Assembly: GCA_017618625.1 (NCBI GenBank)
Contig: JAFZTV010000012.1
Coordinates: forward strand, 22,044 to 86,043
Origin: Bacteroidales bacterium
GTDB taxonomy: Bacteria > Bacteroidota > Bacteroidia > Bacteroidales > P3
Reading direction: 5' to 3'
DNA: 64,000 nt
The notes under the pieces are model-generated. The model had not been told where the DNA came from. It searched no databases and worked only from the letters and a program-made list of their open reading frames with translations. A program made the position numbers and the translations under genes. This document shows positions 21,169 to 34,878 of the stretch, piece after piece. Each line of letters opens with the position of its first letter. Within the stretch, counting starts at the first letter, position 1.

Positions 21169-22269
21169 TTAGTCTCCAAATTCTATTCCAAGTCCTTTGG
21201 CGGTGTGCACCAAGCGACTGTCGGGGCTTACGAGGTTCTGCTCGCGGACGGCTTCTTCGAGTGGGATGCCAACCACATCGGGGTGGTGGTAGGCCACCAT
21301 CTGGCCGAACTTGCCTTCGAGCACAAACTCCATTGCGCGCACGCCGAACTCGCTTGCCAGCACACGGTCGAAAGCGATGGGTGTGCCGCCGCGCTGTAGG
21401 TGTCCAAGTATGGTGCAGCGTATGTCGTGCTCCACGCCCGCGGCTTTCAGGTCGGCTGCCAGTTGTTCGGCTATGCCTCCCAGCTTGATGTGCTGATAGC
21501 CTACCTCGCCAGTCACTGTGCCGGTTACCGAACCGCCTGCAGGCACAGCACCTTCGGCTACCACGATGATGCAGTAACCGTGACGTTTGTTATAACGCTG
21601 CTCTATCTTCTGCTTGATTTTTTCGAGGTTGTAGGGTATCTCGGGGATGATACAGACGTCGGCACCGCCAGCGATGGCGCTGTGCAGCGCAATCCAACCC
21701 GCGTCACGACCCATCACCTCCATGATGAACACACGGTTGTGCGAGGCTGCGGTGGTGACCAACTTGTCGATGGCTTCGGTGCATATCTGTACAGCCGTCT
21801 GGAATCCGAAGGTATAGTCGGTCAGCGACAGGTCGTTGTCAATGGTTTTTGGCACGCCCACAATCTTCAAACCTTTCTGGGCCAATCCGAGAGAGATGCG
21901 CTGGGAGCCGTCGCCGCCAATGTTTATAACCGCGTCGATGCCGAGGTAGGAGAGCTTTCGTATCATCTCGTCGCTGCGATCAACCGTTGTCCAGCTGCCG
22001 TCGGGGTTCTTCACCGGCCATGCAAACGGACCTCCCTTGTTGGTTGTGCCGAGGATGGTGCCGCCTTGTATCTGCAGACCTTCCACCGATTTTTCGTCGA
22101 GGATTTGTATCTCGGTGGGCTCACGCAACACACCGTTGAAAGATTCGATACATCCCACCACTTCCCAGTCGTTTTCCTGTGAGGCGCGTTTTACTATGCC
22201 TCTTATCACTGCGTTCAGGCCGGGGCAGTCGCCGCCTCCTGTGAGAACCATTACTCGCTTCAGTGCCAT
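21169..22269 (-). CDS. pfkA: 6-phosphofructokinase, ATP-type by GGDGS but with PKTIDND (366 aa)
   Basis: Phosphofructokinase of glycolysis. N-terminal MVLTGGGDCPGLNAVIRG, IGGDGSQRIS (about 117-126), catalytic PKTIDNDL (about 140-147), MGRDAGWIALH, and FDRVLASEFGVRA near the end. Gly in GGDGS is the ATP-type residue, while Lys in PKTIDND is typical of PPi-dependent or group III enzymes, so phosphoryl-donor choice is best called ATP with caution. Upstream gene of a likely pfkA-purH operon with a good promoter. Confidence 0.92.
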   Translation of the reverse strand: MALKRVMVLTGGGDCPGLNAVIRGIVKRASQENDWEVVGCIESFNGVLREPTEIQILDEKSVEGLQIQGGTILGTTNKGGPFAWPVKNPDGSWTTVDRSDEMIRKLSYLGIDAVINIGGDGSQRISLGLAQKGLKIVGVPKTIDNDLSLTDYTFGFQTAVQICTEAIDKLVTTAASHNRVFIMEVMGRDAGWIALHSAIAGGADVCIIPEIPYNLEKIKQKIEQRYNKRHGYCIIVVAEGAVPAGGSVTGTVTGEVGYQHIKLGGIAEQLAADLKAAGVEHDIRCTILGHLQRGGTPIAFDRVLASEFGVRAMEFVLEGKFGQMVAYHHPDVVGIPLEEAVREQNLVSPDSRLVHTAKGLGIEFGD

Positions 22270-31328: not shown

Positions 31329-32489
31329 ATGAAAAAAGCACTTCTGATATTTATCAACGCGATCCTGTGTTTGGGACATGTGTTGGGGCAACAGGATATG
31401 GTGAAGATGACCTATTACGGGCATCTCTATTTAGAGTCGAGAATCAACGGGAAGCCAGCCCGTATGGTTTTCGACACAGGTTCGCCATACACCTGCTTGG
31501 ACAGCATCTTTGTGGCCGAGAACGGCCTTGAGTTCGACTCTATAGAATGGACTACGGCGAGTGGTGCAGGAAACGGTGTGGTGGATGTGCCTGTGGTTGT
31601 CAACAAACTGTCCTACACGTTTGGAGAGCGGGAGTTTATAAACGAGATAACCCCTGTCTTGCCAATCAAGCCCATTATTGGCGACTTTGTTGACGGCATT
31701 ATCGGCATATCGAATTTGAGAGACAAAGTAATCTCGATTGACTATGTCGCAGGGCAGATGCGTATTTTGGACAGTTTGGGCGATACTGCTGGATACACAG
31801 CCATACCCATACGCTACGAGAATCATCGTATATATGTGCCTCTCGCTTTAAACCTTTTCGACCATGGATGGATGTCGGGCGATGTCATACTGGACCTTGG
31901 CAGTGGCAATTCGGTGTCAATCTATGGTTGGGACGCAGTGCGTAATATCTCGCCGCGCATTTGCTACACCGACATCAATACTGGTGTCGGCGGCGGGTCG
32001 TCGGGATGCTTTTTCAGGGCCAAAAGTGTGACGGTTGGACCGTTCACATTCGACAGCGTGACGATGGATTACAGAAACAATTCAGTAGGTGCGATTTCAC
32101 CCGAGAGTGACTGTATGGGTATCATAGGGAATGCCATCTGGGAACGGTTCGACATGATGATTGACCTGCCGGGCAGGAAGTTGTACCTGAAAAAGAACGC
32201 CAATTACGGCAATCCCTTCGGAAGTCCTCTGATAGGTTTCACACCTACCAACCGTGGCAGAACCCTTGGTTGTTGGATTGTGAACGGCATCTTCACTGGT
32301 TCCAACGCTGAGAAGGCAGGTCTCAGGTGCGGCGACCGTATAACGGTCATCAATGGACGCAGTGTGAGAGAAATTGGTTTTGAGGATATGCCCACATTCT
32401 TCAAAGGTATGAAAAGCATTACGTTGACCGTCCAAAGGGACAACGGCACAGAAGAGATAAGCTTCGATTTCGACAAGCCCAAGATATGA
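31329..32489 (+). CDS. Retropepsin-like aspartic protease with PDZ domain (386 aa)
   Basis: Signal peptide MKKALLIFINAILCLGHVLG. Two aspartic-protease-like lobes: RMVFDTGSPYTCLDS near residue 46 with the D-T-G motif, and GDVILDLGSGNSVSIYG near 190 with D-x-G-S. A C-terminal PDZ domain follows (about 300-375: GCWIVNGIFTGSNAEKAGLRCGDRITVINGR). Bacteroidetes encode many such exported proteases of unknown target. Divergent from the DUF1846 gene and upstream of the rpoN fusion, but the latter has its own promoter. Confidence 0.82.
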   Translation: MKKALLIFINAILCLGHVLGQQDMVKMTYYGHLYLESRINGKPARMVFDTGSPYTCLDSIFVAENGLEFDSIEWTTASGAGNGVVDVPVVVNKLSYTFGEREFINEITPVLPIKPIIGDFVDGIIGISNLRDKVISIDYVAGQMRILDSLGDTAGYTAIPIRYENHRIYVPLALNLFDHGWMSGDVILDLGSGNSVSIYGWDAVRNISPRICYTDINTGVGGGSSGCFFRAKSVTVGPFTFDSVTMDYRNNSVGAISPESDCMGIIGNAIWERFDMMIDLPGRKLYLKKNANYGNPFGSPLIGFTPTNRGRTLGCWIVNGIFTGSNAEKAGLRCGDRITVINGRSVREIGFEDMPTFFKGMKSITLTVQRDNGTEEISFDFDKPKI

Positions 32490-32601: not shown

Positions 32602-34878
32602 ATGATAGGTCAACGGCAGACTATGAAGCAGCAGCAGAAGCTGACTCCGCAGCAGGTGATGGTGCAGAGGCTGCTACACATGCCTGTCCACGAACTATTG
32701 GATGCGATAAAAAACGAGTTGGAGAAAAACCCGCTGTTGGAGGCCGAGGAGATGCCTATGGAGTCGCTTCCCTCGTATGGCGACATGGACAGACGTGAGC
32801 TCGATGATGACGATTTCGATACTAGAACTTACATGGCATCCGGAGGCGACCGTGAGGAGCGTGAGTGGCAGATGGCAAGCGAACCTACTTTTGCCGAGAC
32901 TCTGCACGAGCAGCTTGAAATGAAAAACCTGAGCGAGAAAGAGGCTTTGATTGGCCACGAGTTGATAGACAGTCTTGACGACAGCGGCTATCTTTCCCGC
33001 GACCTAGGCATAGTGGCTAACGACTTGGCGCTGTACAAGGGGCTGGATGTTGAGCCGCGAGAGGTGGAAAAGGTGCTTGAGGCGGTGCAGTCTCTGGACC
33101 CCGCAGGAGTCGGGGCAAGAAGCCTTCAGGAATGTCTCTCTCTGCAACTGCACAGGATTACGCATCCTGATGCGAAGGAGCGGCTGGCCATGGATATAGT
33201 GGACAGGTGGTTCTCTGCTTTCTCGCAGCACAAGTACGACCTGATTGCAGAAAAGACAGGTGCCGACAGGGATGATTTGAGAGCGGCCATGGAGGTGATA
33301 CAACGCTTGAACCCGAAGCCCGGCGAGTCTTCGGACAGCATGGGCGGTAGGGCGGCAGCTGTGGTGCCCGATATGACGGTATATGTGCAGGAAGGCAACG
33401 TCGGCTTTGAGATAAACGACAAGTATCTGCCCAAGTTGCGGGTGGATGACAGCTATATGGGCATGCTCGAGGCTTTGGGCGGTTCGGATGACCCGAAAGG
33501 CGAGGCGGCGCGGACCGAGAAGTTCATAAAGAGCAACGCCGAGGAGGCCACGTCGTTCATAGAGGCGCTGGATATGCGTCACCGAACCATGATGGCTGTG
33601 ATGAAAGAGATAGTAAGGCGTCAAAAAAAGTATTTCCTGAGCGGCGAGGCTGGAGACCTTGTGCCGATGTTGCAGAAAGAGGTGGCGGAGGCTACGGGGC
33701 TTGACGAGTCAACGGTGTCGAGGATGGTTAATAGCAAATATGTAAGGACCCCATACGGGATGATTCCGTTGAAGGAACTGTTCAGCAATGCGGTGACCAC
33801 GGATGAAGGCGAGGAGGTGTCATCAAGGGCGGTGAAGGCCGCTCTGCAAGAGGCCGTGGAGCAGGAGGATAAACAGAATCCGCTGTCGGACGATGAACTG
33901 TCTGCCTTATTGAAAGCGAAGGGGTATAGCACGGCACGCCGCACGGTGGCGAAGTATCGCGAGGCGTTGGGTATCCCGGTGGCACGTCTGAGAAAAGGAT
34001 TGACTGTGGTTTTGGTGTTGATAGGCGTAGGCATGATGATGCCTAATGCCGTAGCACAGAACAAGTCGGGAGAGAAAGCGGATAAGAACGCTGCGGCAGC
34101 AGAGAAACCGCAGGTGCCGTCGGTGTTGTGGTATGGAAACAATATGTCGGACGCCAAGGTGAGGTTGAAAGAGATGCCGCTTGACTCGCTGCCCGATGAG
34201 ATAAACCTGCGCCTGCTGCGCAAAGGCGAGCAGTTCGCTTTTCCGGTCAAGGGAGTGAAGTCGTCGCCCTACGGCTGGCGCTGGGAGCGTCCGCATCGTG
34301 GCGTGGATATTGCATTGAAGACCGGCGAGCCGATACATTCCGTGTTTGACGGTGTGGTGCGTATAGCCAAGCCGATGGGAGGCTACGGCAACCTGGTGGT
34401 GGTGAGGCATTACAACGGATTGGAAACGGTGTATGGACACTTGTCGAAGATAAATGTGAAGCCGCGCCAGGAAGTGAAGGCAGGCGATGTGATAGGACTG
34501 GGTGGCAGCACGGGGCACTCCACGGGTCCGCATTTGCATTTCGAAGTGCGTTTCCAATATGAGACGTTCGACCCCGAATGGATACTTGATTTCGCTACCT
34601 GTTCGCTCAGGACGCAACGGCTGCACCTTGACAAATCCTATTTTGGTATCAAGAAGCCGCGTGGCAGGAAAGGTGAGAGCCTCGCATACAAGGCCGACAA
34701 GAGCTATATAAAGGAGCCGGAACGGAGAGGGGCGAAGGAGATGTACTATGTGATGAGGAGCGGCGACAGCCTTGTGGAGATAGCCCACCGTTACAGCACC
34801 ACTGTGGATAAAATTCGCGAGCTGAACGAGGGACTGGCGAAGAAACCCAAGGCAGGGACGAAGATAAGGGTGAGGTGA
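32602..34878 (+). CDS. rpoN: RpoN (sigma-54) fused in frame to M23 peptidase and LysM domains (758 aa)
   Basis: Residues 1-465 form a complete sigma-54: region I (QQQKLTPQQVMVQRLLHMPV), the acidic region, core-binding domain, helix-turn-helix (ATGLDESTVSRMVNSKYVRT) and RpoN box ARRTVAKYRE (445-454), ending ...VARLRK as RpoN proteins normally do. No stop follows. Residues 467-485 are a hydrophobic segment ending NAVAQ, like a signal peptide, then an M23 endopeptidase with HRGVD (H565, D569) and HLH (644-646), and a LysM (714-758). The peptidase gene may once have begun at codon 463 (CTG, one base from ATG) followed by RKGL. Topology fits cytoplasmic sigma-54 and periplasmic hydrolase. Real fusion, internal translation start, or a sequence error at the junction are the options. 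Confidence 0.88.
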   Translation: MIGQRQTMKQQQKLTPQQVMVQRLLHMPVHELLDAIKNELEKNPLLEAEEMPMESLPSYGDMDRRELDDDDFDTRTYMASGGDREEREWQMASEPTFAETLHEQLEMKNLSEKEALIGHELIDSLDDSGYLSRDLGIVANDLALYKGLDVEPREVEKVLEAVQSLDPAGVGARSLQECLSLQLHRITHPDAKERLAMDIVDRWFSAFSQHKYDLIAEKTGADRDDLRAAMEVIQRLNPKPGESSDSMGGRAAAVVPDMTVYVQEGNVGFEINDKYLPKLRVDDSYMGMLEALGGSDDPKGEAARTEKFIKSNAEEATSFIEALDMRHRTMMAVMKEIVRRQKKYFLSGEAGDLVPMLQKEVAEATGLDESTVSRMVNSKYVRTPYGMIPLKELFSNAVTTDEGEEVSSRAVKAALQEAVEQEDKQNPLSDDELSALLKAKGYSTARRTVAKYREALGIPVARLRKGLTVVLVLIGVGMMMPNAVAQNKSGEKADKNAAAAEKPQVPSVLWYGNNMSDAKVRLKEMPLDSLPDEINLRLLRKGEQFAFPVKGVKSSPYGWRWERPHRGVDIALKTGEPIHSVFDGVVRIAKPMGGYGNLVVVRHYNGLETVYGHLSKINVKPRQEVKAGDVIGLGGSTGHSTGPHLHFEVRFQYETFDPEWILDFATCSLRTQRLHLDKSYFGIKKPRGRKGESLAYKADKSYIKEPERRGAKEMYYVMRSGDSLVEIAHRYSTTVDKIRELNEGLAKKPKAGTKIRVR

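Follow-up and report, generated by a model that had tools for sequence, protein, structure and literature searches.

A stretch of 64,000 nucleotides from the genome of a Bacteroidales bacterium (positions 22,044 to 86,043 of contig JAFZTV010000012.1, assembly GCA_017618625.1; hereafter the window) contains, on the forward strand at window positions 32602–34878, a fused gene in which sigma-54 (RpoN) is followed, with no intervening stop codon, by a hydrophobic leader, an M23 peptidase and a LysM domain. The best reading of this gene, and one that we consider probable, is that its 758 aa product is a polyprotein which signal peptidase I splits, with sigma-54 tethered to the membrane at least briefly. 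The case is built from sequence: one open frame, what appears to be the sole sigma-54 copy in the fused relatives tested, a conserved candidate cleavage site, little sign of a separate start for the hydrolase, and separate genes in relatives. The fusion is a feature of a group of gut and rumen Bacteroidales. The sigma-54 of this clade, the only one found in the fused genomes tested, would be made joined to a secreted wall hydrolase, and a conserved predicted cut site lies between the two.

A preliminary description of the gene had reported a single uninterrupted frame of 758 codons joining a complete RpoN to a hydrophobic segment, an M23 peptidase and LysM, and this was confirmed by Pfam and TIGR02395; the homologues are built alike. 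All five Pfam domains of the frame exceed their curated cut-offs. Sigma-54 region I (the activator-interacting domain, Sigma54_AID; residues 4–47, 32611–32742) matches PF00309 with E 1.2e-11, the core-binding domain (Sigma54_CBD; residues 91–285, 32872–33456) matches PF04963 with E 3.1e-52, and the DNA-binding domain (Sigma54_DBD; residues 307–465, 33520–33996) matches PF04552 with E 5.8e-51, all on the plus strand, as are the features below. The fused protein scores 401.9 bits against TIGR02395 (rpoN_sigma, cut-off 277.35), and near the end of the DNA-binding domain lies the stretch ARRTVAKYRE (residues 445–454, 33934–33963), which we take to be the RpoN box. By its three Pfam domains, the TIGR02395 match and this box, the sigma-54 half qualifies as an RpoN as judged from sequence. 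Solved sigma-54 chains align up to residue 465, and the best match, 9mse (477 residues), aligns over residues 7–465 of the fusion, with residue 465 paired to 9mse residue 474, three residues short of the end of that chain; this agrees with the earlier placement of the junction at the normal end of RpoN.

The only sequence separating the RpoN end from the rest of the protein is the leader GLTVVLVLIGVGMMMPNAVA (residues 466–485, 33997–34056), taken as an internal signal peptide from its conservation, its hydrophobicity and a predicted helix, and then Gln486 (34057–34059), the predicted +1 residue of signal peptidase I cleavage. The peptidase (Peptidase_M23, PF01551, E 2.2e-33, 114.8 bits; residues 564–658, 34291–34575) carries the HxxxD and HxH zinc motifs, aligns to solved M23 endopeptidases, and its residues H565, D569, H644 and H646 are invariant in an alignment of 64 fused proteins. 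The LysM domain (PF01476, E 1.4e-06, 28.6 bits, cut-off 20.9) occupies residues 716–757 (34747–34872). A Pfam search of the fused protein at E up to 0.001 gave no match to an anti-sigma domain.

The end of the leader, placed where A|Q or G|Q first occurs after a minimum of 8 leader residues, is strongly conserved. In the 87 fused loci it is Ala|Gln in 82, Gly|Gln in 4 and Ser|Gln in one (L099, which is omitted from the counts over 86 loci that follow), and leader length ranges from 13 to 29 residues, falling at 16–19 in 64/86. Among the 64 aligned fused proteins Gln486 is invariant (64/64) and Ala485 is conserved at 90% or more, and every column from 466 to 484 is below 90%. A conserved small residue and Gln amid a variable leader is the pattern of a putative protease site that has been kept, and the sequence features of a signal peptidase I substrate of the Q-rule type are present, namely a positive flank and a hydrophobic core, with a small residue in position –1 and Gln in position +1. 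Under this Bacteroidetes rule, as passages of two papers describe it, signal peptidase I exposes a Gln that is then cyclised to pyroglutamate (PMC5837995, PMC10653852). The earlier suggestion that signal peptidase could split the two halves thus gains support from the conserved small-residue/Gln site.

The preliminary description favoured a chain that stays whole, with sigma-54 anchored in the cytoplasm, the M23-LysM part bound to the wall, and the state of the wall passed straight on from one to the other. Such an arrangement is consistent with the single chain, the positive residues before the segment and the LysM after it, and with an AlphaFold2 model (mean pLDDT 79.5, pTM 0.46) in which a helix spanning residues 461–479 begins inside the RpoN end and continues straight from it (residues 481–505 are of low confidence). 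However, the small-residue|Gln pair is invariant within otherwise non-conserved sequence, and the leader is no more hydrophobic than free signal peptides. Compared with the signal peptides of free M23 proteins from 31 near, unfused relatives, the fused leaders have a median best-12-residue Kyte-Doolittle value of 2.73 vs 2.65 (p 0.88), and over 19 residues they are slightly lower (1.72 vs 1.91, p 0.04). Because its hydrophobicity matches that of the free signal peptides, the leader does not appear to have evolved into a stronger anchor. In addition, since the modelled helix starts within the RpoN end, the model leaves no linker to separate the leader from the DNA-binding domain, and a sigma-54 held at the membrane would be crowded there and would be expected to bind DNA poorly. 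A lasting link from sigma-54 to the wall is therefore less likely than first proposed, the leader being no more anchor-like and the invariant site pointing to cleavage, and we regard an uncleaved sensor of this kind as quite improbable.

A second alternative is that the hydrolase is made mostly from a start inside the end of rpoN, so that the long frame would be of little consequence for it. Start codons were surveyed in 86 fused loci over the plausible stretch, taken to run from 12 codons upstream of the end of RpoN to roughly 12 residues ahead of the cut. No junction position is kept as a start, the stretch lacks ATG in 40/86 loci, and in two (L053 and L129) it lacks ATG, GTG and TTG altogether. 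The possibility that codon 463 is a remnant start was rejected: it is indeed CTG, as had been pointed out, but carries little information, with ATG at this position in only 1/86 fused loci and any of ATG, GTG or TTG in 10/86. Folding of the junction mRNA, calculated over 41-nt stretches, averages –9.8 kcal/mol, which is 1.3 more stable than synonymous shuffles, unlike the open start of rpoN (–3.1 kcal/mol, for an approximate start position and with no shuffled control), and the AT content of the junction is 0.37 vs 0.60 just upstream of rpoN. Several results weigh on the other side, against the polyprotein reading. Some ATG, GTG or TTG is found within the plausible stretch in 84/86 loci. At the Val codon six positions ahead of the RLR(R/K) end (window codon 460, the Val of GIPV), GTG is used in 48/67 fused genes, a mild excess over the 954/1676 (57%) of Val codons in the rest of fused rpoN and the 26/68 in the same column of unfused genes, figures that are uncorrected for ancestry and base composition. 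The difference in folding from the shuffles is about zero at –30 and +30 nt, and at +75 nt the mRNA is looser than the shuffles by 1.0. The GTG excess possibly reflects a weak internal start or a codon bias, and the folding result weighs mostly against internal initiation. There is, then, little sign of a start that alone would serve the peptidase, the case that the preliminary description had named as counting against its reading, apart from the mild excess at one codon. We judge internal initiation improbable, and wherever the hydrolase starts, no stop codon lets sigma-54 end normally, so that even in that case it must carry the extension.

A homologue search with residues 440–758 as query, restricted to candidates of 0.55–1.75 times the length of the full protein, gave 598 matches from the 7998 candidates scored; PF04552 and PF01551 were both present in every one of the 120 matches listed, which puts the architecture beyond chance, and several homologues bear the source name 'RNA polymerase factor sigma-54'. 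Four loci of a species-level genome collection carry titles reading Bacteroidales or Bacteroidetes bacterium, with water buffalo rumen given as the source of one and reindeer for another. The family survey covered the GTDB family of the nearest genome (G001), in which 190 genomes were searched and 177 had a usable rpoN locus (of the remaining 13, nine gave no match and four a partial one). The same fusion, which the preliminary description had proposed to look for in related genomes, is present in 86/177, the window not counted. Including the window there are 178 loci, of which 87 are fused, 63 have a separate M23 gene downstream on the same strand (32 at 129–315 bp and 31 at 784–1314 bp), and 28 show no M23 match in the stretch examined, one of these (L206) being scored in this way though it stops at a contig end and is undecidable. 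The preliminary description had also asked whether rpoN and the M23 gene are adjacent yet separate in relatives; this is the arrangement of many unfused family members, and it is not that of all close relatives, many of which are fused. An error of sequencing or assembly, or a pseudogene, was rejected: nothing was found in favour of it, and the like architecture of 86 other genomes and all 120 listed homologues, together with the retained active-site motifs, makes its probability negligible.

Outside the family the fusion was not seen among the frames examined. Among 148 genomes of a phylum sample, a sigma-54 frame of more than 700 codons occurs in G001 only, and the next longest is 642 codons (G627). 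In a sample of the order, 375/393 genomes have a sigma-54 match, frames being judged among the best-scoring matches only; five of the longer frames listed, those of L032, L038 and L216–L218, end two codons after the RpoN end and are open upstream, and another long frame listed is that of G025 (594). A close relative of the M23 half (E up to 1e-55) is found in 8/393 genomes of the order, with a frame of more than 700 codons, again, in G001 only. As far as sampled, the fusion is confined to the GTDB family of G001.

Comparison with unfused relatives indicates how the fusion may have arisen. Unfused rpoN genes (L206 excluded) terminate 0–7 codons past the position of residue 465, and the fused ones continue. 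In unfused near neighbours the rpoN and M23 genes overlap by 4 bp in some cases and share a frame in some, and the separate neighbouring genes of relatives bear out the view that the hydrophobic segment was the signal peptide of a once-separate M23-LysM gene. Two more distant unfused loci (L163 and L177) have, by eye, a gene encoding a small membrane protein between rpoN and M23, all three genes sharing one frame with stops between them. On a tree of the RpoN part only (182 rows; L215, in which rpoN is in two pieces, excluded) the fused state requires five changes, three of them forced by well-supported branches, and when fused states were shuffled the mean was 60.6 changes, with 0/500 as low as five. 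All but one of the 87 fused rows fall in a single group of 91 rows (support 91, base unresolved), which also includes five unfused rows; the remaining fused locus, L186, is placed apart. On a mixture-model tree of 63 chosen rows, L186 not among them, four changes are needed and two are forced, and a 41-row group (support 92, not starred) comprises the 37 fused rows together with L187, L189 and the pair L188/L214, which is unresolved at its base; the unfused L153 falls outside. L188 and L214 come from related genomes placed with the fused clade and have two separate genes overlapping by 4 bp. In L187 and L189 rpoN ends normally at a stop with no M23 gene found adjoining, and only M23 relatives of 40–47% identity were found in these genomes. 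L186 (also L236, genome G569) is a second fusion elsewhere in the family, with 804 aa, the same domains and a leader ending in G|Q. Taken together, the trees, in which some placements are weak, suggest that neighbouring genes fused once in the main clade and a second time in G569, and that the fusion was later lost in a few lineages. They provide a well-sampled record of a fusion seemingly born from neighbouring genes, reborn once and undone.

The losses weigh against a fusion that serves a necessary purpose: because L187, L189 and L188/L214 lie in the fused clade without it, the fusion appears dispensable. They bear on an explanation that competes with a regulatory role of the fusion and not with the polyprotein reading, in which an intergenic stop was simply lost, export and cleavage still work, the tail on sigma-54 does no harm or is trimmed away, and the fusion has no regulatory effect. 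In its favour are the adjacent genes of unfused relatives, of which some have a 4-bp overlap and some share a frame; moreover, several lineages placed within the fused clade lack the fusion, among them two (L187 and L189) with a normally ending sigma-54, no M23 gene alongside and only the distant M23 relatives mentioned above. On the other hand, the junction is open in most of a clade with deep divergences (fused in 86 of its 91 rows), and in a second case, though one substitution could make a stop. A long-open junction shows long tolerance and, on sequence grounds, not necessarily benefit; long retention and a second origin favour at least tolerance. We consider this neutral course of events quite possible, falling only a little short of probable.

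Returning to the polyprotein reading, its two halves look intact. Exactly one Sigma54_DBD match was found in each of 80/80 fused genomes tested (of 86), in stop-free frames of 743–901 codons. The pattern of the RpoN box is matched in 83/87 fused loci, with substitutions in the other four, and the HxxxD and HxH motifs of M23 are found by strict pattern in 86/87, the remaining one (L186) failing the strict HxxxD yet matching PF01551 over the whole profile. From these sequences the fused sigma-54 looks functional.

The sigma-54 activator domain PF00158 was found in 38/40 sampled genomes and in 18/19 of the fused ones, these being relatives and not the genome of the window. The 19 fused genomes have a single match in 16 cases, two in two and none in one, and several unfused relatives in the 40-genome sample have two or three. 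In nine fused main-clade genomes the activator (L223–L231) has a G(A/S)(F/Y)TGA loop and a Walker A motif preceded by only 39–45 residues, and the three of these searched with Pfam gave matches to AAA+ and Fis-type domains and none to a sensor domain. Some observations run counter to this picture of a working fused sigma-54: L235 (the second activator of G412) and L234 (from G569) did not match the loop search pattern, L234 carries a receiver domain, the fused genome G004 has no activator above cut-off, and the loop of another G569 activator (L233) is GAFTSA, not G(A/S)(F/Y)TGA. At four loci (L223, L226, L228 and L232) the activator gene adjoins an aroA-like (EPSP synthase) gene, and dnaG-like and miaA-like genes lie near some of them, all named from the look of their N-termini.

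The cleavage, topology, tether and release that follow are what we infer from these sequences. Ribosomes starting at the rpoN start would find no stop at the RpoN end and would proceed into the M23-LysM hydrolase. The leader would then act as an internal signal peptide in an N-in/C-out orientation, its positive flank being supplied by the RLRK with which RpoN closes, and signal peptidase I would cleave between Ala485 and Gln486. The hydrolase would be freed outside the inner membrane, to the periplasm, its N-terminal Gln probably cyclised to pyroglutamate as under the Q-rule, and sigma-54 would retain a hydrophobic tail roughly 20 residues long, which would hold it, at least briefly, at the inner membrane. 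Its release may occur via intramembrane or other proteolysis of the leader remnant. Remnants of signal peptides are removed in other systems by the site-2 protease (S2P) RseP, according to passages of PMC10470546, and sections of PMC9044953 describe signal peptidase acting as the site-1 protease of a membrane-held regulator, RsiV. An S2P protease (TIGR00054) scored above cut-off in 12/12 fused genomes tested.

A further step would be that sigma-54 activity is gated by export, with the factor, as the only sigma-54 of the cell and made already joined to a Sec-exported wall hydrolase, held at the membrane and unable to bind promoters until export, cleavage and removal of the remnant succeed. We put this forward tentatively, and think it rather unlikely. 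If true, the activity of sigma-54 would report directly on secretion and wall-building, and export gating could replace sensing by the activator, since the nine fused main-clade activators leave no room for a sensor domain before the AAA+ domain.

Downstream of the fusion in the window is lumazine synthase (ribH, PF00885, 34946–35425, plus strand), and genes with ribH-like and fmt-like N-termini follow the fusion in the window, in L001–L004 and in L236. Directly upstream, at 31329–32489, is a gene for an aspartyl protease with a PDZ domain by Pfam; no open reading frame with a similar start was among those listed for L001–L004.

Sigma-54 characteristically waits at promoters until an activator acts, and we are aware of no other example of a sigma-54 protein that is itself linked to export or to the membrane. 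A search of open-licence papers gave no report of sigma-54 fused to a hydrolase. Pro-sigma-K is a membrane-associated sigma factor that differs from the fusion in having an N-terminal pro-sequence, in belonging to the sigma-70 family and in its role in sporulation. It is likewise a sigma precursor, cut by an S2P protease, SpoIVFB (passages of PMC11486902).

The nearest known kind is that of fused extracytoplasmic function (ECF) sigma factors, such as IutY of Pseudomonas putida (ECF243) and SCO4117 (ECF52). As in the fusion, the sigma factor runs on at its C-terminus into a segment for the membrane and an extracytoplasmic domain, although membrane insertion is here only predicted. In the portions of PMC8999054 that treat them, SCO4117 carries a carbohydrate-binding domain in the periplasm, IutY is freed by Prc and the S2P protease RseP, and proteolytic release is expected for the group of SCO4117; both are ECF factors whose extensions are described there as fused anti-sigma parts. 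The fusion is unlike them in that it involves sigma-54, has no Pfam anti-sigma domain, has a predicted extracytoplasmic part that is by its domains a peptidoglycan hydrolase, and has a site resembling that of signal peptidase I.

RsiV also invites comparison, as a membrane protein whose regulator part is cytoplasmic and whose outer part is removed by ordinary signal peptidase, an arrangement predicted here from sequence. Its extracellular part is cut by signal peptidase at A-x-A or V-x-A and the remnant by RasP (S2P), as sections of PMC9044953 report. It differs in that RsiV is an anti-sigma factor holding sigma-V, with cleavage triggered by lysozyme (same sections), whereas in the fusion the sigma factor itself bears the segment. 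With Q-rule substrates, as they appear in passages of PMC5837995 and PMC10653852, the fusion shares a predicted site at which Gln comes after a small residue, and an origin in Bacteroidales; their signal peptide is N-terminal, however, and that of the fusion is internal, after a sigma factor of 465 residues. Comparative work, as represented in sections of PMC3162934, links sigma-54 to control of the bacterial exterior, and the fusion joins the two in one polypeptide, which makes that link directly testable.

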